Positions 10,484 to 36,686 of a DNA stretch of 64,000 nt are shown one piece after another. The notes below the pieces were generated by a model. That model searched no databases and had not been told where the DNA came from. It was given only the letters and a program-made list of their open reading frames with translations. Origin of the DNA: Zopfochytrium polystomum. Lineage: Eukaryota; Chytridiomycota; Chytridiomycetes; Chytridiales; Chytridiaceae. Where the stretch lies: NCBI GenBank assembly GCA_025765615.1, contig JAIVFJ010000283.1, positions 1 through 64,000 of the forward strand. Reading direction: 5' to 3'. Positions within the stretch are counted from its first letter, which is position 1; every line of letters begins with the position of its first letter. The position numbers and the translations under genes were made by a program.

Positions 10484-12578
10484 GGGCGCGTCAGTCCAGT
10501 TGCCGACCAAGACCGCGTATTGGACACTGCGAGGTAACCCGAAAAGATTGGGAATCATTGGCCTGGAAGTGCCTTTGCCGGCGTGAACCGGGCTGTCTCA
10601 GGTTTTGTTGCTTCTCGTTTTGATGGTGTAAGTGGCGGGTTGGTCTGGACCAGCGTCTCCCACCGTTGCTTTTGCCTGGTTGGTGGTTGCGTGAAGCTGG
10701 CGTCGAGTGAGCATTGCGTCTCCCCAATCTTGAGGGGAGCGAAAGTCAGTGCTTTGATGTGGTTGATGGTATAAACAACGTCCTTCACATTTAAATTTTC
10801 GATGGTGATTGAGTACCTCTGGAGCATCCTGAAAGTGTCGTTCAATCCGAGCTTTGCAGGCGTGACCCTTGATTTTGCGATCCCTGCATTGTACACATTC
10901 ACAGGGCTCGCACCCTGGATCGCCACGGAGTCGATGACTTTGGAGTCGAAAGATGGACTGGCAGGGCTCACTGTGGCGTTGAAAAACGGCGAAGGGGTCG
11001 CATTGTTGAGGAGCGCAGCTTGCAATTCTTCAAGAGCTTTGTTCCGTTGCTGCTGGAGAAGCAACGCGATCGAACCCGCAGGGTAAGGTGAAGCGGCCGA
11101 AGTTCCATCGAAAAAATTGCACGCTGTGCCCGATTTTATGGGGGAAACCACCGTGTAAATGGCATCCCCGATACTGGCTAGATCTGGCTTCAGATGAAGT
11201 TCTGGGTCGAGTCCCGGTGAGGAGAAAGAGGTGACGCTGGGCGCACCGAAAGTAGTCATTCTCTTGAGCTTTTAGGCGAACTGGCAAGTAGTACTCCAGT
11301 GGCCAGCTCAACCCCCGCTGTGGGAAGTGCGGTTTTTCCTTGACAGCGCTATTTACGGATACGCAGCCACCGTCGATGACAGAAAGGTTCCCAATTACAG
11401 AGGGATTATTTGGGACTATTTGGAGCGTTTGGGGAACGATAAGTTTTACAAAAGACCCCTGGCCGACACTAGTATTCCTTGCTGTCGATTGTCAGAAAGT
11501 GCGACCAGGAGGCTCGAATGCCGCCGCCGAAAAGGATTTTGCTGGTTGTCCCGGTCCGCCCGCGAGGAACATCCCGCAATAGTCGTTTCCAGCGCTTCCG
11601 ACCATCGCAACCACTTTATCTTCGTCGGCATAGTTCTGGCTGCCGCTGAAGAACATGTTTATGACGTCTGCAAAGTCCGCAACGGCACGGAAGATTGCGG
11701 CAGTTCTAAAGTCTGTCCCGCGCTCGAAACGATTTTGCACGCGCGGAGTGTGACTGCGGGCGAGGCCTGAAAAATGGACCACGAGGACGAACCCTTCTGC
11801 GGTAATGTTGCTCCCATCGGCGGCTGCGACGCCAGCAACGCTCGTTCCGTGAGAGCCCTCATTGCATGTGTTGAGCGGGTCCCGTCGGGTTTCACTTCTT
11901 GCATCGTGTCGTAATCGTCGCGAATGGAATCCTTGCCGAATGTGACGCGGCAGGTAGAACCGAAACAACCGCCCAGCGCTTTTGATGCCTCTGCCGTCGA
12001 GGCCCAGCTTTTCGCGTGCCTCGTAAACGAAAGTGGCAGAGTGGACAGGGGTCCCGAGTGATGGATGCGTTGACTCCGCCAGTCCTCATAATGCGCTGGT
12101 GGGAATAAATGGGATGAAGCATTGCGCCACCCGACTGCAAGGAGGCGACATGATCCGCAACTGAAAGATGCGGGTAATGACGTCAGGCAGCAGACCGAGG
12201 GGTGGGGGACGTGATGGAGAGAAATGGCTCAGATCAACGGAAGTGCCACTCAATAGAAAAATTTACTCACCAACATCAGTTTGGTCGTTCAACTCGAAGG
12301 AGAAGCCGCAAATCAGGGATGTGTTGGTTTCGGTCCGTGGCTTGAACTACACGCCTTTTTGCATTGAGCAAACTCGAGACTCGGCTGGCGGCGTTGCAGT
12401 CGGGCCAGGAGGAAACTCCACCAGGGCAATGTGAGGCCAGCACTCGGTTCGACAACCGGATCCCGCTTGGCCTAACGAGACGTCTATCAGGGGGAGCAGC
12501 TGCGACGTCGACCGAACGCGCGGCGAGCACAGCCGTCGTGGCGGCGGCGGCTGCGGAGGCAACTGAAAAAGGAAACAT
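10484..12578 (-). pseudogene. Subtilisin-like protease pseudogene (decayed tandem copy)
   Basis: Nucleotide similarity to the intact subtilase at 13219-16383 runs through almost the whole interval in the same order and orientation. Examples are the exon-1 block VLASHIALVEFPPG, the HPIYSHQRIMRTG block, an aspartate-region frame, GSHGTSVAGVAAA (His region) and DGTSAASPYPAGSIALLLQQ (Ser region). Reading frames change at least four times. About 200-300 bp, including intron 2 and the middle of the protease-associated domain, are deleted near 11325. The copy lacks everything after the equivalent of residue ~770 of the intact protein; homology stops at about 10484. The coding potential is therefore dead. 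It arose by tandem duplication, as the spacer between the two copies is only about 640 bp. Confidence 0.9.
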
Positions 12579-13218
12579 CGGAGTTGCCGCAAAAATACAC
12601 GATTCGCTCTTCCGTTAAAAGCGCTCTGTTTGTGTAGAAGGAAGAGCAAACCATGTAAAGAGAATCGCACAATCAGCACAACCACCGTCAAACAACCATT
12701 TCTCAAATTCGACTTCCGCGTGAAGTCGGAGCAGAAAGAAGTTTAAACACAGCAGAATTTTTGTGGCCATATATAGACTGTCTCCTCTTCTTCCACCAGT
12801 ATCTTCTTACTACAATATTGCATGTACAACAAACATTGTTCCACTAACAACCAACTCCTCATAGTCTTTTTCGCACACTTTGGTCTGACAGCTTGTCAAT
12901 CGCCCGGCGCTCAGGCCTGGGTCCGTCGACCAACCCAAGGAATGCTGCGAGGTGCCCGACGTGATTGCATTCGTATTTTAATTGGCTGGCTGAAGAGCTG
13001 CGGCAGTGTCGAAGCACCGAAATTGGAAAAATACTGCTTATTTCGAAGTGCACCCAAACAAAAATAAAATGAAATCCAATCTGTTATCGTCGGTCATCGG
13101 TCATAGCAGCCAAAGATAAAATGAAAAATACTCCATTAAGAAGGCAGAAACCGCACCTCAAACGCACAATGGTTTTCAAAAGACAATCAGGAAAGGGCAT
13201 GATCCATCCCTTAAACTG
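12579..13218. other. Spacer between subtilase copies
   Basis: No gene seen. It contains a TATA-like CATATATAGAC near 12768 and AT-rich 3' flank of the intact subtilase. Confidence 0.5.
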
Positions 13219-16200
13219 TTAGTAAGCAATCTTGACCGCTGGAATGTCCACGATCTGAACCCAAAGTGAAAGTGGGAGTGAGCTAAAAGTATAGCAACTT
13301 TGGACACACTCACGTCAAATGACTCATCATCGTCGAGGCTTGAAAATGGCACAAAATGCTTAAGAGCCTTGATGCGAAGCTTGTAATCGCCAGAAGGAAG
13401 TGAGACCTGTGTGAAGTTGAAAGACGTTGCCGTCGTCGCGGTTACGATCGTAGACGGCACCGCAACATCGCCCCAGAACTGCGAATTGCCCGGAACCCCG
13501 ACCGTCTGGACGCGGGTCGTCATAAAAGTCTGCCTCGACGCGACGCCCCACAGCAGGAAACCGCTCATCAACGCGACGCCCGCTGCGACACCTTGTTTCG
13601 GCTTGCCGATCAGCGATCGATTGGACAGCCCGTTGTCTTTCAGGAACTGCAAGACGGCGGGGTCTTGACCCATGTACGCGACTTCCCCAAACAACAGCCG
13701 CGTGGTAGAGCTGATCGGTAAGAAGCAATTGATCTGCGAGTCGGTCCCGTTGAACTGGAATCCGCTCTTGACCGGTGTAACACCGCCCTCGTCCTCGTAG
13801 CACCCGATCTTCGGAGAAAATTCGGTCGAATGCTTCGCCAGCACTGGCGCGTCGGTCCAGTTGCCGACCACTCCGGCGTACGGAACGTGTTGAACGGTTG
13901 CGTCAAGGTTGTTGGACACTGCGAGGTAGCCTGAAAAGATTGGGAATCGTTGACCTGCAAGTGCCTTTGGCGCTGTGAACCGGACTGTCACGGTTTTGTT
14001 GCTTCGCGCTTTGACAGTGTAGATGGCAGGTTGGTCCGGACCAGCGTCTCCCACAGTTACTGTTGCTTGGTTGGTGGTTGCGTGGAGCTGGCGTTGAGTG
14101 AGCATTGCGTCTTCTCCCGTCCTCAACGGAGCATACGTCACTGCTTTGACATGACTGACGGTATAGACAATATCCTTGTCGTTCAAATTCTCGATGGTGA
14201 CGGAGTAGCTCTGGAGCATCCTGGAAGTGTCATTCAATCCAAGCTTTGCGGGAGTGACCCTCGTCTTTGCGATTGCTGCGTTGTACACATTGACCAAGCC
14301 TGCGCCCTGGACCGCCACAGAGTCGATGACTTTGGGGTCGAAAGTTGGACTGGCAGGGTTTGCTGTGGCATTGAAGAATGGGGAAGGGGTCGCATTGTTC
14401 AGCAATGCAGCTTGCAATTCTTCAAAGGTTCTGTTCCGCTGTTGCTGGAGAAGCAACGCGATCGAGCCCGCCAGATAAGGTGCTGCCGCTGAAGTTCCGC
14501 CGAAGAACCCGTACGCAGTGCCCGATTTAATCGGAGAAACCACGGTGTAAATGGAATCCCCGATGCCACCCAAGTCCGGCTTCACGTGCAGTTCGGGGTC
14601 GAGCCCCGGTGAGGAGAATGAGGTGGCAGTGTTCGCACCGAAAGTAGTCATTCTCTTAAGCTTCTCGTACACGACAACGGTCGCATTCGGCGAGGTTGCG
14701 AGCCGCACTCCTGTTGCGAGCTCAACACCAGCTGTTGGGATTCGATCGGACCCGGTCCAGCTTCCTTTGAAATTCTGATCGCTGACCATTATGCACGCAA
14801 TGGCGCCAGCATCCGCGGCGTTACTGCGGAGAGATCACGAAAGAGACTTTATGAGCATACTAGTAACACAGTCGAGAATCGGGGAACCTACTTGCATGCA
14901 GTAAAAGAGCCGCAAACGGTGCCAAGCTGGAGAATGGCCGTTTTCCCCTTGACAGCGCTTGAAACAGATTTACAGCCATCGTCAAGGACAGACAGGTTTC
15001 CAATCGCGTGCGGGTTGTTTGGGACGACCTGAAGCGTCTCAGGGAACGAAAAATTCGCCAGCAGGTTAGCCGCCGACCACTGGTATTCCTTGCCGTCAAT
15101 GGTCAGATAGTGCGACCACACTTCCTGAGGCTGGAATGCTGCTGCCGAAAAGGCTTTAATCGATTGCCCCGGTCCGGCAGCGAGGAACATCCCTGCAATA
15201 AAGTCATTTCCAGCGCTTCCGACCACGAAATGCCCATCTGCGGCCACCCTGTCAGCGGCGATCGTCGTGATATCGTCGGGATAGTTCTGGCCGCCGCCCA
15301 ACGACAAGTTTATAACGTCTGCGGCATCCGCAGCGGCGCGGAAGATTGCGGCTGTAATCACATCGGTGAAAACAATGCCCGCGCAAGAAATGATTTTGTA
15401 CGCGCCGAGCGTGGCTGCTGGTGCGACGCCGGAAAAGGGAACCGCGGGCACGAACCCTTCGGCACTGATGTTGCTCCCATTAGCGGCGGCAACGCCCGCA
15501 ACGCTCGTACCGTGAGAGCCTTCTTGGCATGTGTTTAGTGGATCGCCGTCTGGCTTCAGAACTTGGGTGGTGTCGTAATCGTCACCAACAAAATCCCAGC
15601 CGAAGGCGACGCGGCAGCCAAGACCAAAGCAGCCGCCCAGCGCCGGGTGCTTGTAGTAGATTCCGTCGTCAAGTATGGCAATCTTGATGCCTCGACCGTC
15701 AAGGCCCAGCTTCTCCCGGACCTCATAAACGCCGGTGGCTGAGTGGACAGGGTCTCGAATGGCGGATGAGTTCAGTCCGACAGCGGATGTTGCAGCGGTG
15801 CTAGTCTGTCCAGTTCTCGTGATTCGCTGTTGGGAATAAATAGGGTGAAGCGTTGCGCCACCCGACAGCAAGGATGAGACGTGATCGGCAGCTGAATGTT
15901 CCGAGATTCACGTACGTACGTGGGGCAGAGAGCAAGAGGAGAGGAGAAGAAACAGCGGATGGTTACTGAAGAGACTTTTGTACGACCCAAAAAGGAAGCA
16001 AAAATTCGCTCACCAACGTCGGTTTGGTCGTTCAACTCGAAAGAGAAGCCACAAAACAGCGATGTGCTCGTTTCAGTCCGTGCCTTGAACGACACACCCT
16101 TTGCGTCAAGCAAACTTGAGACTTGGCTGGCGGCGTTACAGTCTTGGCTGGGAGGAAACTCAACCAGGGCGATGTGTGGGACCAGCACACGGTTCGATGA

Positions 16201-16743: not shown

Positions 16744-17486
16744 GACAACCTTTTTTTTTCCGCTTTTATTTTTTTTTCAATTCTTTTGCATTTCCCTCAC
16801 TCTGATCGTCGGGCACGTTCGCCGGTCATGACCGGCAACGTGACACGGACCGCATTTTCCAGGCACCTCCACGAGCTCAAAGCTGCTGGGAAATGCGAGT
16901 CGTCGCATTTGCTGCCAGCCGCTTTTGCTTTCTGGACTTTGGCCAACCTCGCACTGCTGCGGGCTCCGGGTTCAAAATACTTTGCTGCACCAGTCCGTCA
17001 GCAATTGCTTGGGATTGCTCAAGGAGGCGCTGCTTTGTCGATACCGGCATATCAGTGGCAAAGCCTCAAGCTGTTTGTCAAGAGACGATAGAGGCATGTG
17101 CGCAGGTTGAATGACCTTATTGAAAATGCACCAATGTGGGTGAACGTCTTCCGTGGTGATTGCCCTCCTGCTGTGCATGGCTGCGGAAATTTCGTGGACG
17201 CATGGGAGACTGAATGATGCTCAAAAGCGACTGTTGCACTCAGTAACTCCTTCTAACCGATGTATCTGCAATAGAATTAAGTCCATAGCGTAGTGGGATA
17301 TTCTTGTGAGGCCAGGTCCAAGGAAACGATGAAAGAAACACAAAGGTCGATTTGTTAAATTCTCAGCCCTCAGGTCTAGCTCTCGTTCAGGCTGGTGAGA
17401 CAAATAGCGTTCGATGCATAGAAATGCGCCAAGGAGGTCGTTGTTGGACTGTTCCAGATATTTTTTGACCATTGAGTGATTTTCAT
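16686..17486 (-). mobile_element. Truncated MULE transposon fragment
   Basis: The left 58 bp (16686-16743) match, with a few differences, the terminal segment at 37487-37544. From about 16850 to 17486 the reverse complement matches the 3' part of the transposase copy at about 38800-39424, for example the segment encoding NDLLGAFLCIERYLSHQ. This fragment therefore retains one terminal repeat and the C-terminal third of the transposase in reverse orientation, with stops and indels. It breaks off abruptly at about 17486 inside the conserved ENHS motif, where the unrelated RNA-polymerase-bearing block begins. Confidence 0.85.
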
Positions 17487-18347
17487 CGGTCTGTCAGTAT
17501 TCATGCTCTTGCATTCTGGATCTTCATTTTAAACACTGGACCACAGCACCCAATGGAGCATACACCACCTGAATTCACGCTCAGCCGCTATGTACAGGTG
17601 CACTTGAGGGTAGATGCCCCCAAGATCACATCCATTCAGCTGACAGCGATTGATGTACCCAATCTCAAGTATATATCACCAGATGCTAGTGACAATGTAA
17701 GCACGAGGCTGTGTCACATTCTATCGCATACCTTCTCTGCTGCAGTCAAGCAACTGATGCTAGGTAAGCGAGGCATGGTGCGTGGCTCCACCTTCAGTAT
17801 ACGCAGTATGACCAATGCATGTGGTGTTGCTGTGCCAGTGTGGGACATGCAGTCCAACGAGATCAGAGTGCCCAGCAGATGGCTTGCGCGGATGAAGGTA
17901 CTGATTCGTGTGACAGATGGTGAGCTGCTGTTGCCGGCCTTCAACTTCTGTGCTGCTACAGATGGTGACTGCGGTCTGCTGTGGCGATGCCCTGTGATCT
18001 CTGTTGACTCACTCCAGCCTGTGTTCATACGAGCATGGGAGTTCAATTGCATCAGCTGTCACCCAAATATGTGCAAGAGATTTCATTGCATCTTGACTTC
18101 GATGGAGACGAGGTGCACTTTTGTGTGGTATCAAGCCCCGGTGCAGTTGCCGAGATCATGGCAGGTATATCCAAGGAGGCAAACACTAAGTTCAGCAGCA
18201 GCGTTATCAACCAAGCATATGAACAGCAGATACGTTTGCTGGTGCCAGATGTTGGGAACAGTGACTTCATGCTCGCGTCAACCATCAGTATCACTACAGC
18301 AGGTGCGTATGACTTCGACACACCATACTACGCTCTGTGCCGGTGCA

Positions 18348-18597
18348 CCCTCTCCGCTGTCCACTGGACACTCTCCGCAGGGCCTCGGCCCACCTTATTC
18401 TCTTCTTTTCTCTTTCCTTGGTTGTTGTTGCTTCTCTTCTTGTTGTTTGTTTCCTGGTAGCGTTAACGGCTAGGGTGGCCTGTGCATGGAGACACGCTTG
18501 GTTCTGTCAAGGTTCTTGGCTCCCTACCATACCTGTGTGGCATTTCACTCTTCCCTTCACACAGCTTCTGGCTGCGTGGAATAATAAAAATAAAAAA
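18348..18597 (+). mobile_element. SINE-like retroposed insertion
   Basis: A 250-bp segment ending in the A-rich tail AATAATAAAAATAAAAAA. It is flanked by perfect 16-bp direct repeats GCTCTGTGCCGGTGCA (18332-18347 and 18598-18613). A perfect long target duplication plus a 3' A-rich tail is the signature of LINE-type target-primed insertion. Inside are TAGCGTTAACGG and, about 50 bp on, GGTTCTTGGCTCC, which loosely resemble polymerase III A and B boxes; a tRNA-related SINE is possible but unproven. The insertion interrupts the RNA polymerase frame. Confidence 0.75.
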
Positions 18598-18872
18598 GCT
18601 CTGTGCCGGTGCAAGGAAGAGCCGCGCATGCAAGTGGCAGCTACGAACAGCAATGTCAGGAACAGGGCAGGACAGGACAAGGCAGACATGGAACTGAGAG
18701 GAGTGATGATTGTATTGTAAACAATAATTCAATTGAGGGATGGGACAGGTCCCCCATCCTCCTTTTATACCATTTAAGAGTCCCTTGTCAAGACTCAAAG
18801 AAAGTTCCAGAAAGAGCAATTAGTAATACAATGATACCAATGATACCAATGACAACAAGACAAGTCAGGAAA

Positions 18873-18950
18873 GCAAAGGAGGTTCCAGAAGGTTCCACAA
18901 GGTTCCATGAAGGAATGTTCTAAAAGGTTCCAGAGGTTTCCAGAGGGTGA
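18873..18950. repeat. Short GGTTCCA iterations
   Basis: The heptamer GGTTCCA, or a one-base variant, recurs irregularly five to six times within about 75 bp in the noncoding gap of the RNA polymerase pseudogene. This may be a residual tandem repeat or the end of another inserted element. Confidence 0.5.
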
Positions 18951-19973
18951 TTCATAACAAGCAAGGAGCACAACCTGGATGACCCAGTTCAGGACAGCCT
19001 GAAGCGTCTGGCAAATGTCATTGAGAGTCACCTTAGAGTGTCTAGCAGCTACGTTGTGTCACGTTATCTCAAGGTAATCCAGCAGCAGATGGCATGTTCG
19101 ATGTGCAATGGCTGGAAGCTAGTGATCAGCGCCCCGATATCCCTCGACTCACTGTCCCTCACGGCCTTGCTGTATATGGTCTCCCTGGCTTGCGATTGGC
19201 TACTAAGCTCACAGAGGCTATGGTGCAAGAGAGCCTGACTTGTGCCAAGCATCAAGCAGATGGTGATCAGTCTTCTGAGGATGTAATGTCTCTGCTGACA
19301 GGCACAGGCCAGGTGATGTTGTATTACTCGAACACTGCCAGTGATTCACACATCAAGCATACAGCACATAGCAACAATGTGTCATCTGTAGTACTCAAGC
19401 ACAGACCGCCGCTGTTCATCACCAGCAGGGAGCATGCACAGTCACCATTCAGCGGTCCAAAGTCGCGTCTCATGTCTCTGCTTATGATGACCAGCTATAT
19501 CTGCCAGAAATACAACATACCAGCTGCTAGAGAGGAGATAGTGGATTTCGTTCCTATACTCGATGCTAGTCTGCAGACAGCGGATGTGAGTAAGCCAATG
19601 ACCAGCACCACACAGTGCGACTTCATGCTGTACACGCAGTCCAATTTCCTGTCTCTGATACTGTGCCACAATGTCTCGCTGTTCAACAGAAGCCCAGTGC
19701 ATGAGTTCAGCATGGAGCGCATGACAGCAAATGGCCTATCTCCCCTCTTCTGCATAGCAAGTGGCAATGTGAATCCAATTGCATATCTCTCAGTGTCTAG
19801 TGCACAGTAGTTTAAAACTGCACTGGAATGTCACGTACCATGAGCAACTGGAGGAATGCTACAGTTGTATGTGATCTGCTCATGACAGCATGCACTCCAT
19901 GCTCGATGACCTGCAGTAGCGCAAAAGCTGTGGGCGGGAGTCCCTGTGTAGCAACCAAGCCATCTGCCATGAT

Positions 19974-20857
19974 TCACACATAACCATTGCGTGTTGCCGT
20001 AATGCCCATGGACCTGAATCTGAAGTTGGTGATCTCCTTGACCACCAGGTATCCCAGTCTGTGTATAGCATCAGCCAGTATGCTCAGTGCGGTGGGTGTC
20101 AGGAGGCATGTTACTGTCTGCTTGTCATATCTCACTATGGCATTCAGCACACTGCCGTATGTATACAGGAACGTGGGATCTGATGCAGGAATAGCCTCTC
20201 CCTGTGCCTGGAGCATGTTGTGGATGGGTATGGCCAGTCTCCCGCTCAGTCTGGGTCTCTCGTCTATGTATGTGGAGAGAGGAGCGGAACATGGGTGACC
20301 GCTGCTACTGCCCTGGTGCACAATATGCAGCCTCTCAAACATGGCTCTCCTATGAGCCTGTGATACCTGCAGCAGCTCTACCGTTGATGACGCGATGTAC
20401 GGCTGTGTCATACCTACCTCCACTGTAAGTCTGGGGCCTAGCGTCCACATTCCAAAGGATATCTCCTGTCCCAGTTCAGTGGGAATGCCTCGATCACACG
20501 TGTCGTTACCATGTTCTCCACTATCTTCCTGTGCAAGGCTATCTCCTCGTTACACATTGGCACTACAGTTCCCCACTGTGATGCAAGACAGTACGCAGCT
20601 AGTCCCTCCAGTTTGCCACTCCACTTCCTGTCTGCAATGAATGCATGGATATTGCGCTTGTTGTTCTCATGTCTCTCAGTGATAGTGTTGTTCTTGTTCT
20701 CGCCTGTTGGTACGACCTGGTAGCTAGTACATGCTCTAGGTGCTACTGTCACTCCATCAGACACCGGACTCATGCTAGTAGCCAGTCCCGATGCTGGTTC
20801 TGTAACCTGTGCTCTGTTAAATGAAGCAAGTGAGCGGATAGAGGACATTGTATCCAC
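19974..20857 (-). pseudogene. Unidentified ORF pair in the foreign block
   Basis: Two overlapping minus-strand frames, 20857-20438 and 20450-19974, read as one protein with a frame change near 20470. Segments include NKRNIHAFIADRKWSGK, then GLAAYCLASQWGTVVPMC, and in the second frame GMWTLGPRLTVEVGMTQ and ILADAIHRLGYLVVKEITNF. The composition matches the RNA polymerase blocks and not the host. Another minus-strand frame upstream (to about 21131) may be its 5' part. I recognise no family. It is transcribed convergently toward the RNA polymerase gene, ending about 170 bp from its stop. Confidence 0.45.
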
Positions 20858-21266
20858 AAATGTTGCATCCTTGCTAGTGCAGGCATTAACAACATGAACT
20901 GGGCCACGCCCGAAGTGCCTGCTCTATGTACTCATTGTCACAATCCAATGTCTGTAGCGGGTGGTAGCAGCAATGTGAGACGGGCATTATATCTGTTCCT
21001 GGACAAGGTGAGGATGCAACTACTACCAATTGCACTTCAGTGTATGCGCCCAGTATCACACATACATTGCGTGTATTTCCTGCTCTGTGCCTCATGTGAG
21101 TATCTGCACGATTGTGTACCGCTGCGTGCACTTGATGCTATGATCTCCCGTGGATATGTGAGCTGGTATGATGCGCGTATCAGATGCTCTCGTGCTGGTG
21201 CCGATCACTGCAGGGATTGCATTCTGCTGGTGCTGTCTCGGGCCTTCTTGCTATTCGCATCACGAC

Positions 21267-21572
21267 ATGAACAAACTGATCGCCAAGCTAAGTAAGTGCA
21301 CAACAGTTGTTGATTTTGAAAACAGCACACTCGATGACCTGAGTATGGAGAATCTACTGACCGACACACGCGTTCTGCATAATGTGCTAGAGCAAAAGAC
21401 ACCAATCGTGGATCAGAGTATGTATGAAGCATGGAAATGGATCCTCAAGTTGCATCACAGGCTCAGTCCAGGTGACATATTCGAGACTATGGTCTCATCC
21501 GTAGCATATAGCTTCAATCCAGACACATTCGCTTGGCCTGCAGCTACTGATGATAACTACGGGCCTTGTAGC
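21267..21572 (+). pseudogene. 5' fragment of an unidentified gene of the foreign block
   Basis: From the ATG at 21267 (MNKLIAKLSKCTTVVDFEN) an open frame runs about 100 codons. It has SMENLLTDTRVLHNVLEQK, then MYEAWKWILKLHHRLSPGDIF, and composition like the rest of the block. The sensible part ends near 21572, where host-like sequence takes over. It is probably truncated at the right-hand junction of the block. The function is unknown. Confidence 0.4.
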
Positions 21573-21600
21573 GTGTGGCGAAACGATGGACAATGTTCGA

Positions 21601-22068
21601 AACTAGTCTTTTGACTGCAACGCGCATTCTCCCCACTAAGGTTTTGAACCTATCCGCAATTTCTAAGGCGGTCTCTTCGTGTAGTACTTGATTTTGAGGC
21701 CGCTGGTCCTGATGCTACAGCAGCCGCCAAGAAACAAGGCTGACGTTAGCAGAAGCGTTCTCCGTTGTGTGACGAGATCAACGCTATGCAGTTACAAAAC
21801 AGAGGGACCAAGCGCGCTGGGCGAAGCGCAGCTGCGAGCCTACCACGTTCGCCTGCAGTCGTTGGAGAATCAGCGGCTGCAACGGCTGGGTGCCCTGTGC
21901 AGCGTCCGAAGGGAGGGCGACCGAGACGGGAGGTTGGCCCGTTTGTGGTGGCTCGGCGCGAGACGAGTGGGAAGAAAATGGGTACCCACCCTTCACTGAT
22001 TATTGTCACCTTGTGGACACATTCACATCGGATGTGCGTTTCCACACCCCTTTGTAAAGTAAATATAT
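21601..22068. other. Right flank of the foreign block; possible downstream exon
   Basis: Host-like GC-rich sequence. A minus-strand frame (21784-21996), containing PLQPLILQRLQANVVGSQLR, could be exon 2 of the small gene at 22069-22167 if that gene is spliced, with a GTATGA donor at its end. This is not certain. Confidence 0.3.
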
Positions 22069-27911: not shown

Positions 27912-30853
27912 TCACTGCTTCAGTCCCCAAAACGGTACAAAATCTGGTACATTCACAAGCACTGGCCGGACCAATCCCGCCGAGTCGATCGAACTCGCGC
28001 CTTGCTCCGGCACGCCTATCCCTTTCGGGCCCACCCACACCACCCCGCGGATGGTCGGCGTAGGCCCGCTCCCAGCTGCTGCCGTTAGCGGCATCGTCGC
28101 TGGCGGCGTCCCCGTTGCTACGGCAAGGGTACCTCGCGGCTGCCCGATGGTCGGGTCGATGTGCACACGGCTTGCTCCTCCGCGTGCGACGACACTCGGT
28201 CCTGCCCACCAGCCTACTCCGCGCACTTCGCCACATCCTATCGCGTTAAGCACTTCCAGTCTACCAACAATCGTTGCGCTTCCGGGAGGCGAGGTGGCCG
28301 CGCCGCCGTGTTCCAGCAGTTCGCGGATCCCGTGATCGGTGACGCCCAAACAGTAGTTGAGACACAGGTAGCGAATTCCTACGTACGGTGGGTCAAGTGG
28401 AGGTGGCGGTGAAGGCATAGGTGGTGCAGGTGTGGAGACTGACACGGGTGGAAGTGGGTCCTGTGGTCTAGAACTTGATGGAGCAAAGGTTGGAGTCGGT
28501 CCGAAGGGAGTAGCTGCCGTGGGTTGGGTTGGCGGTGGGGAGCTCGTCGGTGTGGGTGTTGCCGCCGGCGGCAAATGAGCTCCTGCGATTGAATCGGACC
28601 GGGGTGGGGTGCGAGAAAACGGAGCAGGTCGGCGTCGGAGATGAAGGGGCCAACCAGATGACGAAGATTGCGGCCGTGAGGCAATGTCGTCCTCCTCCAA
28701 ATTTAGCGCAACAGAGCTTCCAGCCGGTGGGGGTGACGGCGATGTTGGTGGGGTTGGCGTCAGTGGGACTGGAGTGGCGGGACGGTCTGTTGTGGCATGG
28801 TGGCTGCCTAAGAGAAGCCCCGTGGCAGGGGGTGATAGAGGACTCGAAACACGACTCGATGCGGCCGAATCTTCGCCTGAGGGGTGAGCAGCTTTCCGTG
28901 ATGGTGGCGCTATAGTCCACCGTCGGACGATGGCCAAGCAGCTGAAGTCGCCCACACGATGGCAACCAGACAAGTCGAGCCATTCAAGACCCGGACAGAG
29001 TCGCACGACCTCCTTGACACAGAAATCTCCCACTGCCGGGTTCCAGCCAAGTCCAAGTCGCTTCAGGCTCGGCCCGCATTCCCGAGCCACCTTGATCACA
29101 CAAATCTCGGATCGCCCTCCGCCAGCAAGGTTCAGAGCCGTCAATCGGGACAGAGCATGAGCACATCGTTGGAGGGCAAAGTTTGTCACCCCTTTACAAA
29201 ATCCAAGGTCCAGAGTCGACAAATGGAAATCTGGAAGCATCAGCAGTCGGGTCAGCAGCGGTGAAAGCTTTCCAGAGTAGCGATCGGGCTCTGGTAGAGT
29301 AGCAGAGAGGGTCAGATCCTTCAGCAAAGAGGGATAGCTGATTTTCATGTCCGCAGTGGCGCTCTGACCAAGACCCCCAGCGCTTCCATCCCGTTCCGCT
29401 ACTTTGACCAGCTTTTCGAACTGGGCAGTGTCATGAAGCCACGGGCGCCTCCAAAGAACTGTGACGGCAGCACGGTTCCACCACCGATTGACAAGGGCGC
29501 ATGCGTGAAGGGGCGCTGTGGTCGAGGCTTTGGAAAGCAAAAACAGTGCATCGGTTGGGTGCGGGTCAAAGTGCGACAATATTTGAAGAAGAAGCTCGAA
29601 GGGAAGAAGAGCAGCGACAGAAATCTTCTTCCCAACCGAAATCAGGCGAGAATCCGACATCCAGGTTGGCTCGGCTGCTCTTGCTGCTCCCAAACTGATA
29701 AGACCGAAAGAGTTTATCAAGATGGCCGTCTGATTGGGCGCAACTGCGAGGGAAGGATAAGCCGTCTCACAGCTGTCGGCAGTGACGAGCCGTTGGATGT
29801 CGTCGCTGACATTGAGGGCGGCAAACGCCGAGAGCTTGCCAAACTCGACAATGTGGGTGGCGGGAAGAGACAAGATCTCTGGTGGGCCTGGGGATGCGGC
29901 TCGTCTCTGCCCATGCTGCTCCCGAAACTCGAGAGATCCCTGGGCACCGTGGTTCGTGTGGACGGCGCCGTGCACATTCATCCCCTTGTCATCGTCCTCG
30001 GCGGCCTCTGCTCCCGAGTCCTCCAAAGAAGCACTCCTTTCAGCGCTGGCAGTCCAAGGCATTGACTTGAAAGCGTCCCGTCTACTGGACACAGCGCTGC
30101 TGCTATTGCTACCATTGAAAGCCTTGCCTGCAACATGAAGATCGGTGACGATTGTGTTCTGGTTTGATATTGTCTGTGCAGGATGAAGGTTGGATCTAGT
30201 TGGTTTCAAAGCACATGAAAAAAATTCACAGAACTAACCAAGTGTGTATCGCCAGTGCTTGCACCACTCTTTCGTGGAGATAGGCTCGCACTATTCGAGT
30301 GCCAATGATGGCTGGTGCCATCGCTGGTAGACGCATCGAGGAAGCTTTTCGTGCGATTAACGGCAATTTTAAGAGCGCCACCTGGTTGCTGCTGTTGCGT
30401 GGCTCCCTGCGATCCTTGCTGGTTTGTGATTGAAGGACTGCTCGTCGTCAAGCTGGAGCCGGAGAGCTGGTGAAGATCGAGATGCTGCGGATGTTGCGAT
30501 GCAAGGGAGGCTGCGGCAGGCGAGTGTGTGGATGAGGAGCTCGCGTTGCCCGGAACCGAAGAACCTGGCGTTGTGGTTGGTGTTGAAGACATGTTCATCT
30601 TGAAATCGTCTTCGGCTCTTGTAATGGGAGGCGAGGGATGGAGGGAAGGGGAGATGCGGGAATGATGGGCGATGGCGTGGAATGAGACCGACTGAGACTG
30701 CGGACGGGATGGCAGTGCATCGGATGGCGCAGACGATCCAGCAGAGGATGAGGACGGTGAAGAGTGGTGAGAAGGTGGTGGGGCGTGGGTGGCAGCGACG
30801 GGAGCTGGTGTGGAGGGGGGGAGTGGTGGCGGACAAGGAAGCACCACCACCAT
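27912..30853 (-). CDS. F-box/leucine-rich-repeat protein (AMN1/GRR1-like)
   Basis: Two exons, 30853-30239 and 30173-27912, joined by a 65-nt phase-0 GT-AG intron, give about 958 aa. The N-terminal 390 residues are low-complexity Ser/Pro/Gln/Thr. The F-box is at about 393-440 (ISVAALLPFELLLQILSHF, then ALVNRWWNRAAVTVLWRRPW). Leucine-rich repeats of the cysteine-containing type follow: LSTLDLGFCKGVTNFALQRC, given in pieces as LDLGFCKGVTN, SLKRLGLGWNPAVGD, LEWLDLSGCHRVGDFSC, and, after a 160-residue Pro/Ser insertion, GIRYLCLNYCLGVTDHGI and LEVLNAIGCGEV. Such proteins select phosphorylated substrates for SCF ubiquitin ligase. The start is uncertain: the frame is open upstream to about 31150, and 30598 is an alternative ATG with good context. 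Confidence 0.8.
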
Positions 30854-30883
30854 TCCGGCGCCGATTGTGCTGCTGCTGTCCGC

Positions 30884-30955
30884 TCCTCCTCCTCCTCCTC
30901 CTCCTCCGCTGCCGCTGCTGCTGCTGTTGCTGCTGCTGTTGCTGCTGCTGCGGCT
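30884..30955. repeat. Trinucleotide tract (CCT)n/(CTG)n
   Basis: Runs of CCT followed by CTG/TTG units. If the F-box/LRR gene starts further upstream than 30853 these would encode Ser/Asn and Gly runs; otherwise they lie in its leader. Confidence 0.85.
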
Positions 30956-33812
30956 GGGAGATACGCCGGTGCGACTCGATAATGTGCTCGCGACGGAGGC
31001 TGGGCAGGTACGGGATACGGGTTTTGAGGCTGAAGGAGGAGGAGGGAAAGGGGGAGGGGGGGGGATGTTGCTGCTGCATCTGGTCAGGGGTTTGTGCGGC
31101 CAACACGCAAACACAAACAGTCCAGTGCGAGTCAAGAAAGGTGCCCACAAATTGGTTCGGGCTCAAATTTGACTGGTCCAATCTCGTTCACACTCGAATC
31201 TCGATTTTTTGTCAGAGAATCGATCACAGTAAATAAGCCCGCAGAGCGCAGCACATGGAGCGAATATCTCGCAGGCAGCTCCACAGGGTATAAAAGATGA
31301 ACTGCAGCCACACCCATCCCAATTTTGAATGTATAATCATCCATCTGACGGCAACGCCGGGGAAAAGACATCTGATGAGTCTACCAGGCGAGTGGGTTTG
31401 CTGCGTTTGCATCGAACAAGAAAACGTATCGAATCCTGAGCGTGGTGGAAAAACTGTTGCTAGTTTGTGCACGGAAACTCGATCAGACGAAAAAGTAAAA
31501 ACATTTCGATGGCCCACAGAAATTCTTATAAGGAATTGGATGGAAGTAGGTTCTGATATTCACGATGGGTCGAGCTGGCTCGGTCGTTGCACTCGCTGCT
31601 CCTGCCGCATCCCCCGCAACCTTGACCACGACCGGCTGTGGTGGAGTTCCAATAAAGGTGCGATGAGACACAAGCTGCCAAAGCTGCCGAGAGAGGGTGG
31701 TGTCAGAAGGATCGCCTATATCGTCTCAGCTGCAAGCTCCGGCGAAAGCTGAGAGAACGCTTAACGGCCAGGTGGCTGCCAATCCGTTTTGTTTGTGCGT
31801 TGTTCGTCCCTCCATATTTCTTTTCAGTGCTGAACTGGGCATTCTCAAATTGGTCGTTCCGCTTAGCGACGCACCTCGGGCTGTCTTTCCAATGGGTTTT
31901 GTTGCTGAAGTGAATGACAAAGCTTGTCGGTTTGGGACGAATTCAAACGAGTGTCTCTCCAGCCCTCCGACTTTCGGAGCGGAGATTCCCAGATTGGGGC
32001 CGCTTCTGACAGCGACCCAGGTAGAGTCATCCAAGTGTGTTCCCGAGTGCGCCTGTCCGCGGCAAGCCCCCGAACGCGCGAAGTTCCGCGATTACGAGAC
32101 CCTTGGAGGAAGTATTCAAGCTCTGTTTCCTTTGTTTATTTTCCTCTTTGACTCACTTTGTTAACAAACCCCTCTCTTTTCTCAATCTGCATTTTCAATT
32201 GTACCTCTAGCACCAACTGTAGTACCACCTTTAAGAGGTCAAAACGGGCAGCATCCAGTTCCATCCGCGCCTCCCCCAGCAGCCCCATGCTTCCGCCTCC
32301 CCAGCTAGAGAATGTCCGAAACATCCGAGCAAGCAAAGAGAGCGACAGCTGCAGCTCATGCAGCCACAGCAACCACCGACACCGTTCTCGTCTGCCCAGC
32401 GGCTCCCTTCGCCGAAATCGAAAATTGCGGAAAGTCCAAAAGTTCGCCCAATACTGCTAATAAATACCCAACAAAAAATGATTTTTCTCTGGTTTTCCTT
32501 TTAACACGGTGCATGTGCCCTGTTTTCCCCTTGCAGCCGGTGTCGTCCCGTTTTCTTTTCGCGCTTTGTGAATGCCGCCTGCTCGATGGTTTGTCCCGCC
32601 CAGACAATAAATTAATTGTCTTCTAAACAGCATGCAGTGAGCGAATAATAAGCGCGGTCCGCCAAAACTGAACGCTGTTAATTTTTGATACGGGTCGTTT
32701 CTTCAACTTTATGGGAAAAGCGGCGGCTATGTTTGTGTTTAGGGTCGGCTCCGTGCATCCTTCCTTGCCACCAACGAGGAAAGGGAGCTGCCGGGACGCG
32801 GCCCCGATCGACAGTCCGCTTTTTCAAAGACGGCGACTCGAGAAAAAAAAGAAAAGAAAAGAAAAAATACACAGCCGTGGCTTGGTGTCGGCCCAACAAG
32901 CAACAGAGCAGAGGAATACTTCGGAGAGCTGACCTGCTTGAAAGAAAAACCACCCAACGAACAAGCAACAAGAAGAATACGGTCTTGAACACAACAAGAA
33001 CCCAGGGGTGGGGAGGGGAGTGCACTCAGGAGAAAACAAAGAAAACGTCACGAGGTTCTATCAACCGATTTTTCCCTTTCCTTTCCCGCGGGCACACATG
33101 CGTCCCTTCCTTCGTTGGTCGTTCGGGGAGGACCACCATCCACACCGCACCACCCCACCACCGCACAGCACACACACACTACAACAGAGAGGCGCAACAA
33201 CGGGGCACTGGCGAAAAGAGAGGTGGGGAAGGACAGAGACGAGAGTATCCGCACAGCGGCATCAACGCCCAATGGAGGAGGAAATCAAAGGGGATGGTTA
33301 GGGGGGAATAGAGGCTTCAAGCAAAAGAAGGGTTCGAGTTCGTGTGTGGCTGAAATCGAGCAACAGCCCCGCTGCAGCTGGGCAACCTCGTTGTGTGAAA
33401 GAAAAAGGGGAGGCAACGCAACAAGCAGAGACTCAGGAACAACAAAAAAAGAGTGAGAAAAGTAGTCGTCAACAGGAAAAGGACAAGAAAAAAAACAAAA
33501 GTAAACCGAAACGGATAGAAACGAGAGAGGGCGGGAATCTGGGTGTCACCGAACAGGAGGACCCCAAGTTTAGAACGAGAGAGACAGAAGGGATAGACGG
33601 CCAACAAAAATTAAAGAGCAAACAAAGTACCCAACAAGGGAACAGCCGCGGACGAGAAGAGAGGAGATGTTTAGGCATAGCAACACATCATAGAGGGAGG
33701 AGACGGCAGTCACTTTCCCGCTAATCACATCTGAGCAACAAGAATAACGACGAAAAGGTCAAGCAACACGTCAAACAGGTCGCAGTTGCGAATGAACAAG
33801 AACGCATTAAGC
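30956..33812. other. Long intergenic interval, no confident gene
   Basis: Two plus-strand TATA-like sites (TATAAAAG at 31289 and TTATAAGG near 31525) precede short ATG frames at 31375 and 31564, and a 104-codon frame lies at 32312-32626. A minus-strand frame at 32136-32372 has coiled-coil-like LDAARFDLLKVVLQLVLEVQ. None can be assigned. From 32650 to 33812 the sequence is purine-rich plus-strand DNA forming the 3' flank of the Tag1-like gene. Small or spliced genes may be hidden here. Confidence 0.4.
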
Positions 33813-36686
33813 TTAAGCGTTGATGGTCAAACCAGCGGTGGTCTGGTTGTAGTTCAAGGGCACCGCAAAGCCTGCTCCAGCCGCTCCACCCAGCACTCCC
33901 CCGAGCGTGACGCGAACCGAAACTATCAGTGACCCGGCCGCAAAGCTCTGCAGCAGAGCGCGGTTCGTGTTCAATCCGTTCTGTCCGATCAGGTTCAGGT
34001 TGGTCGTCACTGTGGTGGTGGCGTTGGACTTTGCCGGCACCGACAGACCTTCGTAGGCGGCAGCTGTTCCCGAGGGAGTTGTGGAGACCTCGATCAAACC
34101 AATGTCGGTGGACACGGTCGTTACGGGATCCACCCACGTCACCGTGCCGTTCGTCAACGAAGTGAGCGAAAGAGTGGTGTCGAACGGGTTGAACAGGGTC
34201 ATCGTGGTGCGTCCAGTGGCGTTGAAGAACGAGTTCAACGAAACGTCAAGCCTCGCCTGCTTCACAACTGTGTCCGTGTTCACCGGAATCTGGAGCGAGT
34301 CGATAGACACGTTTGAAAGGGCGGCGTTAAGCGCGCGGTTTGTTCCTGCGGAACCAGAGTAGCCAGCAAGGGTCAGCGGGACAGTTTGCGACGTCAGGAA
34401 ACGCGAAAGCAAATCCGAAACGGCTGTTTGGCTGGCCGCCGTTGGATTGCTAATCGCAATGGTAGAATTGAATGTGGTTGCGGTGCTCCGAGGCAGAGTA
34501 AGAGCCGTTATGGAAAGGTTACCGACTGTGGTGCCAGCAGAAAGTGGGTAGTTCACATTCAGGTTCACAGCGCCCATCGTGAGGAGTGTGGTGGACGGGT
34601 TGGTCAACGTGAGCGAAGACGTAACAAATAGCGTGGTCGGGTTTCCACCGGTTACTTGGAATAACGGGATGGCAGAACCCGTTTTAAATCCCTTCAACGG
34701 TTCAACGCCGTACTGAGTGGTCCTGTTGGCAGTCGGCAAAGGGATTTTTAAAAGAGCAATTTGGCCGATTTTGGTCGATAAGGTATAGTTGCTAAGACCG
34801 TCTACCCCGAGGTTGACAGTGCTGTTGCTGTTGATAATGTCCACGACCCAGTTCTGGTACGCAGTGTAGGAGTCGTTTACAACCAACTGCTTTGGTGCAA
34901 GTGACGAAATGATGGAGCTTCGGTTGCTTCCAGCTGGTGGGGGCCATGATCCGGTGGAATTCGCTTCGGCACCAACCCTTTGCCCCACATTGTCCTTGTA
35001 GGTCAAATTCAAGCCACTGGTGACGCTTACGACATCGAAGGGGAAGTTGAATTTGAATCCAAAGTTGGTTGTGGCATTGTCGAAGCCCAATAGCGGAAGG
35101 TTGTCAGTTGCCGTTGTGAAGTCAAGGGATGGTCTCGCCAGCTCAAGCGACTGAACAAAGCTATTTGCAGAATCGGTAGGAATGAAGGGAAGAGTCAGGT
35201 TGAAAGATTGGAGAGCTTCATTGATCCAATCAATTGTCGGAATTTTGGAGCCGAAGTCGGTTTGAACAAGACCCGTCAACGCAAGGCTGTAGTTCTTGCT
35301 CCCAAGGAACGTGTTAAAGAGGGACGTGATCAATTCCTTCGTGTTGCCCCCGTTTTTATCGATTGGGTCGATTGCTCCAATGAAAGGGAAAGGATTAGCG
35401 CCCGTTTTAAGACTCCAGCTGTGAACAATAGCACCACCGACAGTGGTGAGGGAAGAGTTTGTTGCACTGTCGGTCACGTTAACGAGACCGTTGGCAGGGA
35501 GCGACAGGTTGAATCGACAATCGCCCAAGTCAAGAGTGAATGGAGATGGATTGTTAATGAGAACCGTGAGATTCGCCTTGATGCCCGTAAATGGATCCGT
35601 GGCGTTATCCAAAAGATCCCAAGCGACAACACCGCTGCCAGCGAATTGGTTGATTCCATTGAAACCGAAACCCTTGTTCGAGATTGTTCCACTCACGAAG
35701 ATTCCTCCGAACACCTTAACCTCAACGGCGGAGTTCAAGGCGAGATCAAGGCGGTCGCGAATGAAGAGATCCTTCGCAAAGTCGCCAAGAGCAGTGCCGG
35801 AAGCATACGTCGCAGGGAAGCTCGAACTGAAGGTGGCAGTGCCATCCGAGTTGATGCCGATGTTACCGGGGTTGTTGATAGTGAAGACTTTGGTTCCATT
35901 ATAAGTAACGTCAATGTCGGATGTGAACCTCAACCACTGAGTGAAACTCGCAAAGCCCGAAAATTGCGAGTCAAGGGCAATAGTAAAACTCGAGGTCGTC
36001 GGCGCGCTCAATTGAACGGAGTTGACACCGAACGATGAATTGTTGATGGCGAGCTCTGCGAGTGTGGACATGCCAGCGTTAGGAAATTGCGGTCCCCAAG
36101 CCGAAGACAGTACGGAGATATACTTACGCACGACACGAGGAAGAATAACCCAAATGACGACGGGAATCATGACAGCGGCAATGATGAAGACAATACCAGC
36201 GCAGACGAAGCATACAATCCTCCTACGACGGGTCCAAAACGTCCGCTTCACACCCTGGCCTGGCGTCAGCTGCGAAGACGACTGCACCTGGCCGCCCGAA
36301 CCCGAGCCTGATGAGGACGTGGCAGCAGCAGCGGCGCTGCCGCCCAGGCCTGGGTACGGCTCAGCCCTCCGGCGAGGGGTGGAGGGAGTCTTTCCGGTGT
36401 CTGACGAGGAGGCCAGCGCCGGCTGCGATGGTGGCTGCGAAGCCGGCTGCGATGCGCTGTACCCCGATTCCGAGCCGCCATAGGAGGCCTCTGTAGGCGC
36501 AAAGGAGTCTGAAGAAGGTGGATGGCGGTCGTAGGTGGGAGAAACGGAAGTGATGATGAGAGGCAAGGCTGGAAGGAATGCTTGCTACTTATCACAGAAC
36601 GTCCATTCCTCCAGAGCCAGCACACCTCCCTCCCCCATCCCACTCGACATCCCACTTCAGCACGTACCAGGATTCCTGGAAGTCAT
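33813..36686 (-). CDS. Tag1-like DUF3712 vacuolar membrane protein
   Basis: Two exons: a 19-nt first exon at 36686-36668 (MTSRNP plus one base) and 36568-33813, separated by a 99-nt GT-AG intron, giving 924 aa. The long frame itself has no ATG before the membrane segment, and the micro-exon supplies a start in the correct phase. The cytoplasmic N-terminus is Ser/Pro/Gln-rich (about 125 aa). One transmembrane helix follows the basic RRRR motif (IVCFVCAGIVFIIAAVMIPV). The rest is lumenal, built of repeated LEA2/immunoglobulin-like DUF3712 units with dozens of N-glycosylation sites. Yeast Tag1 sits in the vacuolar membrane, controls V-ATPase activity and helps end autophagy. The same topology makes that a reasonable role here. 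Confidence 0.88.

Follow-up and report, generated by a model that had tools for sequence, protein, structure and literature searches.

A decayed RNA polymerase beta-prime gene in the chytrid Zopfochytrium polystomum and its probable source in a DNA element with transcription genes of its own

The window analysed here is a stretch of 64,000 nucleotides from the chytrid fungus Zopfochytrium polystomum, in which positions 17485-19807 hold a broken copy of a gene for the largest (beta-prime) subunit of RNA polymerase, about 600 residues long when whole. The first-pass annotation of this DNA had described the block as a divergent beta-prime gene. The identity was borne out, while the gene is not intact: the window copy is a decayed, dead pseudogene, an old piece of an element genome. 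All the motifs quoted in that annotation are present on the plus strand, namely GKRGMVRG (17763-17786), EIRVPSRW (17859-17882), DFDGD (18095-18109) and LRLATKLTEAMVQESL (19190-19237), and since they are spread over two frames they do not belong to one open gene. Relative to the copies on contigs C491 and C64, with which it shows 88-92% nucleotide identity, the window copy has lost about 155 bp near 17731 and changes frame somewhere between 17882 and 18095. The G+C content is 0.495 in 17485-21620 versus 0.55 for the whole window. The features of the locus are the following (LTR, long terminal repeat).

17485-18347, plus strand: beta-prime remnant, N-terminal and active-site part (lid/zipper GKRGMVRG, DFDGD), frameshifted; 88-92% to C491 and C64; profile scores 151 and 85 bits
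18348-18597, unstranded: putative retroposon-like insert of 250 bp within the beta-prime remnant; A-rich tail, perfect 16-bp target duplication (18332-18347 and 18598-18613)
18598-18653, plus strand: short beta-prime segment between insert and LTR; 92.9% to the C491 and C64 copies
18654-18959, unstranded: solo LTR (306 bp) of a 5.2-kb LTR retrotransposon; target duplication AGCAA (18649-18653 and 18960-18964)
18960-19807, plus strand: beta-prime remnant, C-terminal part with the bridge-helix/trigger-loop-like LRLATKLTEAMVQESL; profile score 102 bits; 90% to the C491 copy
19808-19821, unstranded: gene-junction sequence TAGTTTAAAACTGC, a variant of GTTTTAAAAC, between the convergent beta-prime and gene B
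19815-20725, minus strand: gene B remnant, convergent, frameshifted; protein identity 89% to C491 gene B and 26% to C374 gene B
20924-21226, plus strand: weak gene C remnant; match to profile A3, significant only in 21143-21226 (E 1e-6, six-frame search of 1.5 kb)
21330-21581, plus strand: gene F remnant; tblastn matches of gene F from C160, C175 and C374 at E 9e-6 to 6e-5

The 250-bp insert, which we would class as retroposon-like, is absent from the C491 and C64 copies and matches none of the fetched loci, and the solo LTR is about 95% identical to the LTRs of full elements, e.g., C175:129337-134585.

The beta-prime identity of the block rests on a family profile (alignment A5) of 19 proteins, all from outside the Zopfochytrium genome, which scores 151 bits (E = 2e-45) against the window frame 17469-18470, 102 bits (E = 2e-30) against 19046-19807 and 85 bits (E = 3e-25) against 18008-18457. 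The best frame of the host RNA polymerases reaches 36 bits with the same profile, as counted over intron-cut frames of at least 50 amino acids in the loci fetched for four polymerase genes of the host (contigs C51, C36, C26, and C49). Because of this difference a host polymerase is not the best match, and the view that the block is no copy of one stands. A Pfam scan of the broken window pieces gave nothing useful; PF00623 does recognise intact relatives (the C7 copy at E 7e-9), and scans of the beta-prime proteins returned PF00623 and OrsD only. In the motif D[FY]DGD the three aspartates and the glycine are invariant in 19 of 19 outside sequences and are kept in the window. The protein has the overall fold of a multisubunit RNA polymerase largest subunit, and a beta partner is encoded in the same array on C175 and C374.

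The closest sequence and fold matches of beta-prime are eukaryotic, archaeal, and eukaryotic-virus largest subunits. The best sequence match in PDB (8hyj, E 1e-13) and the best structural Z (8xme, 18.9) are both to plant Pol IV/V largest subunits, and the model also aligns with those of vaccinia and African swine fever virus (ASFV). The jumbo-phage-like origin considered in the first-pass annotation found no support: tblastn with protein P0003 against 50,697 phage records gave no match. The PHROG matches, such as phrog_2987 with the C7 copy (E 6e-8 over 65 residues), are confined to the active-site region; five named phage rows occur among the best 50 of the viral fold search. The PHROG and phage fold matches fit a common ancestry of polymerases.

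The window copy is one of many. Searches with two beta-prime proteins gave matches at at least 18 places on 17 contigs, two of them on C491; several are fragments (the shortest of 48 residues) and several copies are broken, while six frames are open over 623-794 amino acids (C7, C175, C64, C374, and C491a and C491b on contig C491). A maximum-likelihood tree of 29 rows, in which 10 of the 26 inner branches are well supported, was read only at its starred groups, because the rows of P0022, C158 and the window are at most half filled and the branch of P0027 is very long. The window row groups with C491a and C64 (100/100). A wider clade around this trio (97/95) also takes in C160, C158, C374 and P0012 from Boothiomyces, and a separate deep lineage (100/99) unites C7, C175 and C491b.

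Among C7, C175 and C491b the beta-prime genes differ by a dS of 0.23-0.24 and a dN of 0.024-0.028 (synonymous and nonsynonymous divergence), giving dN/dS of 0.10-0.12; between C7 and C175 the ratio is 0.11 for gene B, 0.25 for gene C and 0.14 for gene F. A beta-prime dN/dS near 0.1 shows, as judged from substitution patterns, purifying selection. Most likely, these three copies are separate captures of related genomes whose genes were still in use as they diverged, since by contrast the duplicated pair C491a/C64 has 13 nonsynonymous and 6 synonymous changes (dN/dS 0.67). This pair lies in a 4.3-kb duplication (C491:21142-25430 and C64:60627-64939, 98.6% identical), in which an intact beta-prime frame stands head to head with a LysM/GH18 chitinase gene. 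Upstream of beta-prime, a 1.9-kb flank (C7:345249-347165, C491:25427-27344, and C175:107873-109670) is mostly 94-99% identical, about 97% over most of its length, and thus more alike than the synonymous sites of beta-prime in the same copies, which differ by 0.23. This flank may be a conserved end of the element genome; short pieces of it also occur on C8, C88 and C209. The gene model P0001, which has an OrsD-like domain, starts upstream of beta-prime.

An all-against-all comparison of the open frames in the fetched stretches placed beta-prime in arrays of 19 kb (C175) and 37 kb (C374), with about a dozen genes of unrecognised function. The C175 array reads as follows (PolB, family B DNA polymerase).

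109956-111968, plus strand: beta-prime
111987-113114, minus strand: gene B
113062-113973, plus strand: gene C
114013-114702, plus strand: gene F
114720-116057, plus strand: gene G
116067-118577, minus strand: RNA polymerase beta
118581-120863, minus strand: PolB
120860-122284, plus strand: helicase
122610-124442, plus strand: gene I
124806-126695, minus strand: capping candidate
to 129038: gene O remnants

In C374 (9000-45883) the genes common with C175 stand in the same order, reversed. This array adds D and E on the far side of beta-prime, H next to I, and the genes J, K, L, M, N and O past the capping candidate. PolB and beta are separated here by an LTR element (about 28515-33824), and the frame of PolB is interrupted. 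In Pfam, beta passes PF00562. PolB matches PF00136 at E 3e-40 and PF03175 at E 1e-5 (24.7 bits, under its 25.8 cut-off); over the whole genome PF03175 had no match, although no control matched either. The capping candidate has a nucleotidyltransferase (NTase)-like stretch (DGVVAI...TYRIKNLTIDML) followed by an S-adenosylmethionine (SAM)-type motif (VIVDVGSGRM), both assigned by reading. Gene N carries ricin-type lectin domains (E 5e-17) and belongs to the secreted-looking genes at C374:9000-18077, together with K (C-terminal hydrophobic segment) and L (signal-peptide-like start).

PolB queries match C175, C384, C111, C48, C94, C319, C104, C374, C270 and C70, and more weakly C51 and C466. Beta and capping queries match further contigs, a few of the weakest beta matches being confined to the opening 52-86 residues of the query frame, a part that overlaps the LTR. 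In all five contigs where both matched, PolB is found upstream of beta and on the same strand. A second PolB, 97% identical to that of C175, occurs with an open capping candidate on the same contig at C384:1102-10762. In the window, subtilisin-like open frames recognised by reading alone lie on the minus strand (13176-15871 and 10558-11271), with relatives near another element copy (C7:321244-324185).

A gene-end signal recurs through these arrays. Ten exact matches to the palindrome GTTTTAAAAC lie in 8 of the 39 fetched loci; with two loci repeating others, they reduce to eight distinct places, each of which overlaps the stop of an element gene or lies at most 35 bp after one. TTTTAAAA has 25 occurrences in 259,144 bases, 17 of them within -2 to +62 of an element stop; of the others, three lie in the 1.9-kb flank common to C7, C175 and C491, two elsewhere in arrays and three elsewhere. 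A T4-A4 palindrome, counted as T3 or more plus A3 or more, 7 bases or longer in all and lying between -8 and +63 relative to the stop, marks 20 of the 31 open reading frame (ORF) ends in C374 and C175 versus 0 of 87 control ORFs, where at least four of the 31 are by reading not whole genes (an antisense frame, one cut at the fetched border and two broken-gene pieces). We suggest that this motif ends transcripts. The end motif of K, M and N is common with that of the replication genes. The window retains TAGTTTAAAACTGC between beta-prime and B, and its three matches to GTTTTAAAAC with at most one mismatch are at chance level, none at the element. A4T4-like promoter words, seen by eye upstream of a few C175 and C160 genes, were dropped at counts of 3/30 versus 1/87.

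Outside the genome, a protein search that scored only the 7,994 candidates sharing most words found 25 proteins, 23 of which are members of the beta-prime family, 16 of them 594-651 amino acids long; P0028 and P0029 were rejected as ordinary bacterial-type beta-prime. A separate search added P0005 and the host proteins P0001 and P0002. Relatives with a named source come from Melampsora americana, Boothiomyces sp. JEL0866 and Ascosphaera pollenicola, next to metagenome contigs. Of the 23 relatives, 13 have a longest contig of 13-28 kb and nine one of less than 6 kb, and that of Boothiomyces measures 37.8 kb; the Melampsora contig is 14.4 kb long. A pattern scan of GTDB genomes gave no beta-prime relative. 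PolB matches 1,154 phage records, none covering 80% of the query and the best rows at 22-26% identity, which is read as general PolB kinship. Two PolB pattern matches in IMG/VR (L038 and L039) were set aside as generic family B polymerases, with 23-24% PolB identity and no match to the other element genes.

These data are best explained, with a probability of about 0.85, by a broken chromosomal beta-prime of an autonomous DNA element with its own transcription. The origin from an integrated DNA virus or plasmid, as proposed in the first-pass annotation, is supported by the beta, DNA polymerase, helicase and capping-candidate genes of the same element family. Most likely, the copies go back to an undescribed DNA virus of fungi, or a virus-like element, that had its own transcription and whose genomes became endogenised. 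Slightly more than half of our confidence in an autonomous element goes to a virus rather than a plasmid; the virus is only inferred, because no capsid gene was recognised. Having both large RNA polymerase subunits, a DNA polymerase and a likely capping enzyme, such an element would therefore read and copy its own genes without the host machinery. Beta-prime and beta would form a minimal two-subunit RNA polymerase, the NTase-plus-methyltransferase-like protein may cap the transcripts, and the T4-A4 palindrome may be a two-way transcript end signal read by the element polymerase. Like poxviruses and yeast linear plasmids, the element would replicate and be transcribed outside the nuclear machinery of the host, probably in the cytoplasm. 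Secreted proteins with lectin domains may serve cell-to-cell spread. Pieces of the element genomes were captured many times in chytrid chromosomes.

Several points weigh against this explanation. No capsid or packaging gene was recognised in the fetched 37 kb of C374 and 21.5 kb of C175, where a diverged capsid could be missed, and no complete element genome with ends is present among the sequences examined. The Foldseek matches of beta-prime have whole-chain TM-scores of only 0.15-0.34 on the query at about 10-21% identity. Beta matches TIGR03670 (NCBIfam) under the curated cut-off, the helicase matches the phage/plasmid primase C-terminal (D5-like) family at E 5e-12, below the NCBIfam cut-off, and the libraries do not back the capping candidate (no match in PDB, a sub-threshold Pfam mRNA_cap_C at E 0.19, no pertinent match in PHROGs or NCBIfam). 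Scans of IMG/VR by sequence pattern revealed no relatives for beta-prime, beta, the capping candidate or the helicase, and gene B, whose profile had no match in 5.8 billion proteins, has no outside relative. Purifying selection could also stem partly from host use instead of viral life.

The strongest rival is a plasmid without a virion, kin to the cytoplasmic linear plasmids (virus-like elements) of yeasts and having its own RNA polymerase, capping enzyme and PolB, which we consider possible and clearly the lesser choice. Its gene set would be of the same kind, with compact mixed-strand genes and no recognised capsid gene, and a comparable system is described for Kluyveromyces in parts of PMC6211774, which list RNA polymerase ORF6/ORF7, a capping enzyme and ATNTGA promoters for the yeast elements and argue for a poxvirus-like origin. 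However, ATNTGA occurs upstream, within 60 bp of the first ATG, in 3 of 30 element ORFs and in 2 of 87 control ORFs. In C175, beta (116067-118577) and beta-prime (109956-111968) are encoded separately, whereas yeast-element ORF6 presumably fuses the two; PolB is of the PF00136 type with PF03175 under its cut-off, whereas the yeast PolB is, we assume, protein-primed, and the helicase is D5-type.

An insertion of fragments from an ordinary giant virus (Nucleocytoviricota) seems improbable. It would account for PolB, a D5 helicase, two RNA polymerase subunits and a capping candidate, which are giant-virus core functions, and the same genome has one capsid fragment of nucleocytoplasmic large DNA viruses (NCLDV) on C206 and one VLTF3 on C340. 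These markers are single, however, versus at least 18 places for beta-prime, and both contigs are absent from the match lists of beta-prime, beta, PolB and the capping candidate. The element beta-prime has about 600 residues versus mostly about 830-1,430 for the unfragmented giant-virus entries listed in the fold search, and 13 of 23 relatives have a longest contig of 13-28 kb. The capsid fragment (C206:50226-50384; 78 bits over 53 profile positions) is the sole PF04451 match in the genome, on a contig without element matches, and the VLTF3 (C340:1080-1538; 117 bits), also the sole match, lies outside the element contigs listed; the chytrid genome thus carries giant-virus traces as well, on contigs without matches to the beta-prime element.

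Domestication of the polymerase genes, their proteins being kept for the fungus's own use, is quite improbable: six long open frames and the dN/dS near 0.1 among three copies would agree with it, but several copies are broken, C491a/C64 have a dN/dS of 0.67, and copies from the chytrid itself are spread over two or more distinct regions of the tree. That the gene is a diverged duplicate of the host Pol I, II or III largest subunit can practically be dismissed, as only the PF00623 homology speaks for it, against 36 bits for the best frame at the four host polymerase genes fetched versus 151 for the window and the beta and PolB genes adjoining intact copies.

Returning to the autonomous element, one can suggest a broader picture, to which we give about even odds. 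The family would represent a fungus-wide undescribed lineage of DNA viruses of about 25-40 kb with self-sufficient transcription by a miniature cellular-type RNA polymerase (beta plus a 600-residue beta-prime, which would be among the smallest full-span largest subunits) and a palindromic T4-A4 two-way terminator between convergent genes, a missing link from poxvirus-like viruses to the yeast cytoplasmic plasmids. According to the parts of PMC10640383 (2023) consulted, no double-stranded DNA virus infecting fungi was known, while a giant-virus region was reported in Rhizophagus; the mycovirus survey PMC7482067, which includes Zopfochytrium, deals in its consulted parts with RNA viruses. No description of the family was found in the literature searched (mostly open-access, without preprints), which does not prove novelty in print; the family is apparently undescribed. 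It provides sequence evidence, in Chytridiomycota, Basidiomycota and Ascomycota records, for DNA elements with their own transcription and replication genes, and in a chytrid it presents intact element genes that are under selection. Where yeast cytoplasmic plasmids and poxvirus-like transcription came from thereby becomes directly testable, and a putative minimal two-subunit RNA polymerase is on offer for structural work.

Among known systems, plant Pol IV and Pol V, which are cellular many-subunit enzymes, provide the best PDB sequence match (8hyj) and the best Z (8xme), although the sequence similarity is limited to 78 residues around the active site. LEF-8/LEF-9 of baculoviruses and nudiviruses represent a reduced beta and beta-prime pair of a DNA virus, and LEF-9 stands at ranks 38 and 45 among the viral fold matches listed; however, its fold E-values are weaker than those of Pol II-type viral subunits, and the element beta-prime gives PF00623 and OrsD only. 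Poxviruses and other Nucleocytoviricota share with the element PolB, a D5 helicase, the large RNA polymerase subunits (with the vaccinia/ASFV alignment of the largest one) and, as a candidate, the capping enzyme, while the element differs in its short beta-prime of about 600 residues, in the 13-28 kb contigs of 13 of 23 relatives and in that no capsid was recognised and no VLTF3 found in its arrays. Yeast linear plasmids of the pGKL2 type, as far as the cited parts of the literature describe them, resemble it in a DNA genome, their own divergent multisubunit RNA polymerase, a capping enzyme (here a candidate), PolB and short conserved gene signals. The element differs in separate beta and beta-prime genes, a PolB not of the protein-primed profile, a D5-like helicase, no ATNTGA enrichment, and named relatives that include Chytridiomycota and Basidiomycota. 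The yeast cytoplasmic elements have terminal inverted repeats with bound protein. Three tested features thus set the element apart from the yeast linear plasmids and one (VLTF3) from Nucleocytoviricota. The family would belong to a kind already known, namely DNA viruses or virus-like elements that carry a multisubunit RNA polymerase of their own.
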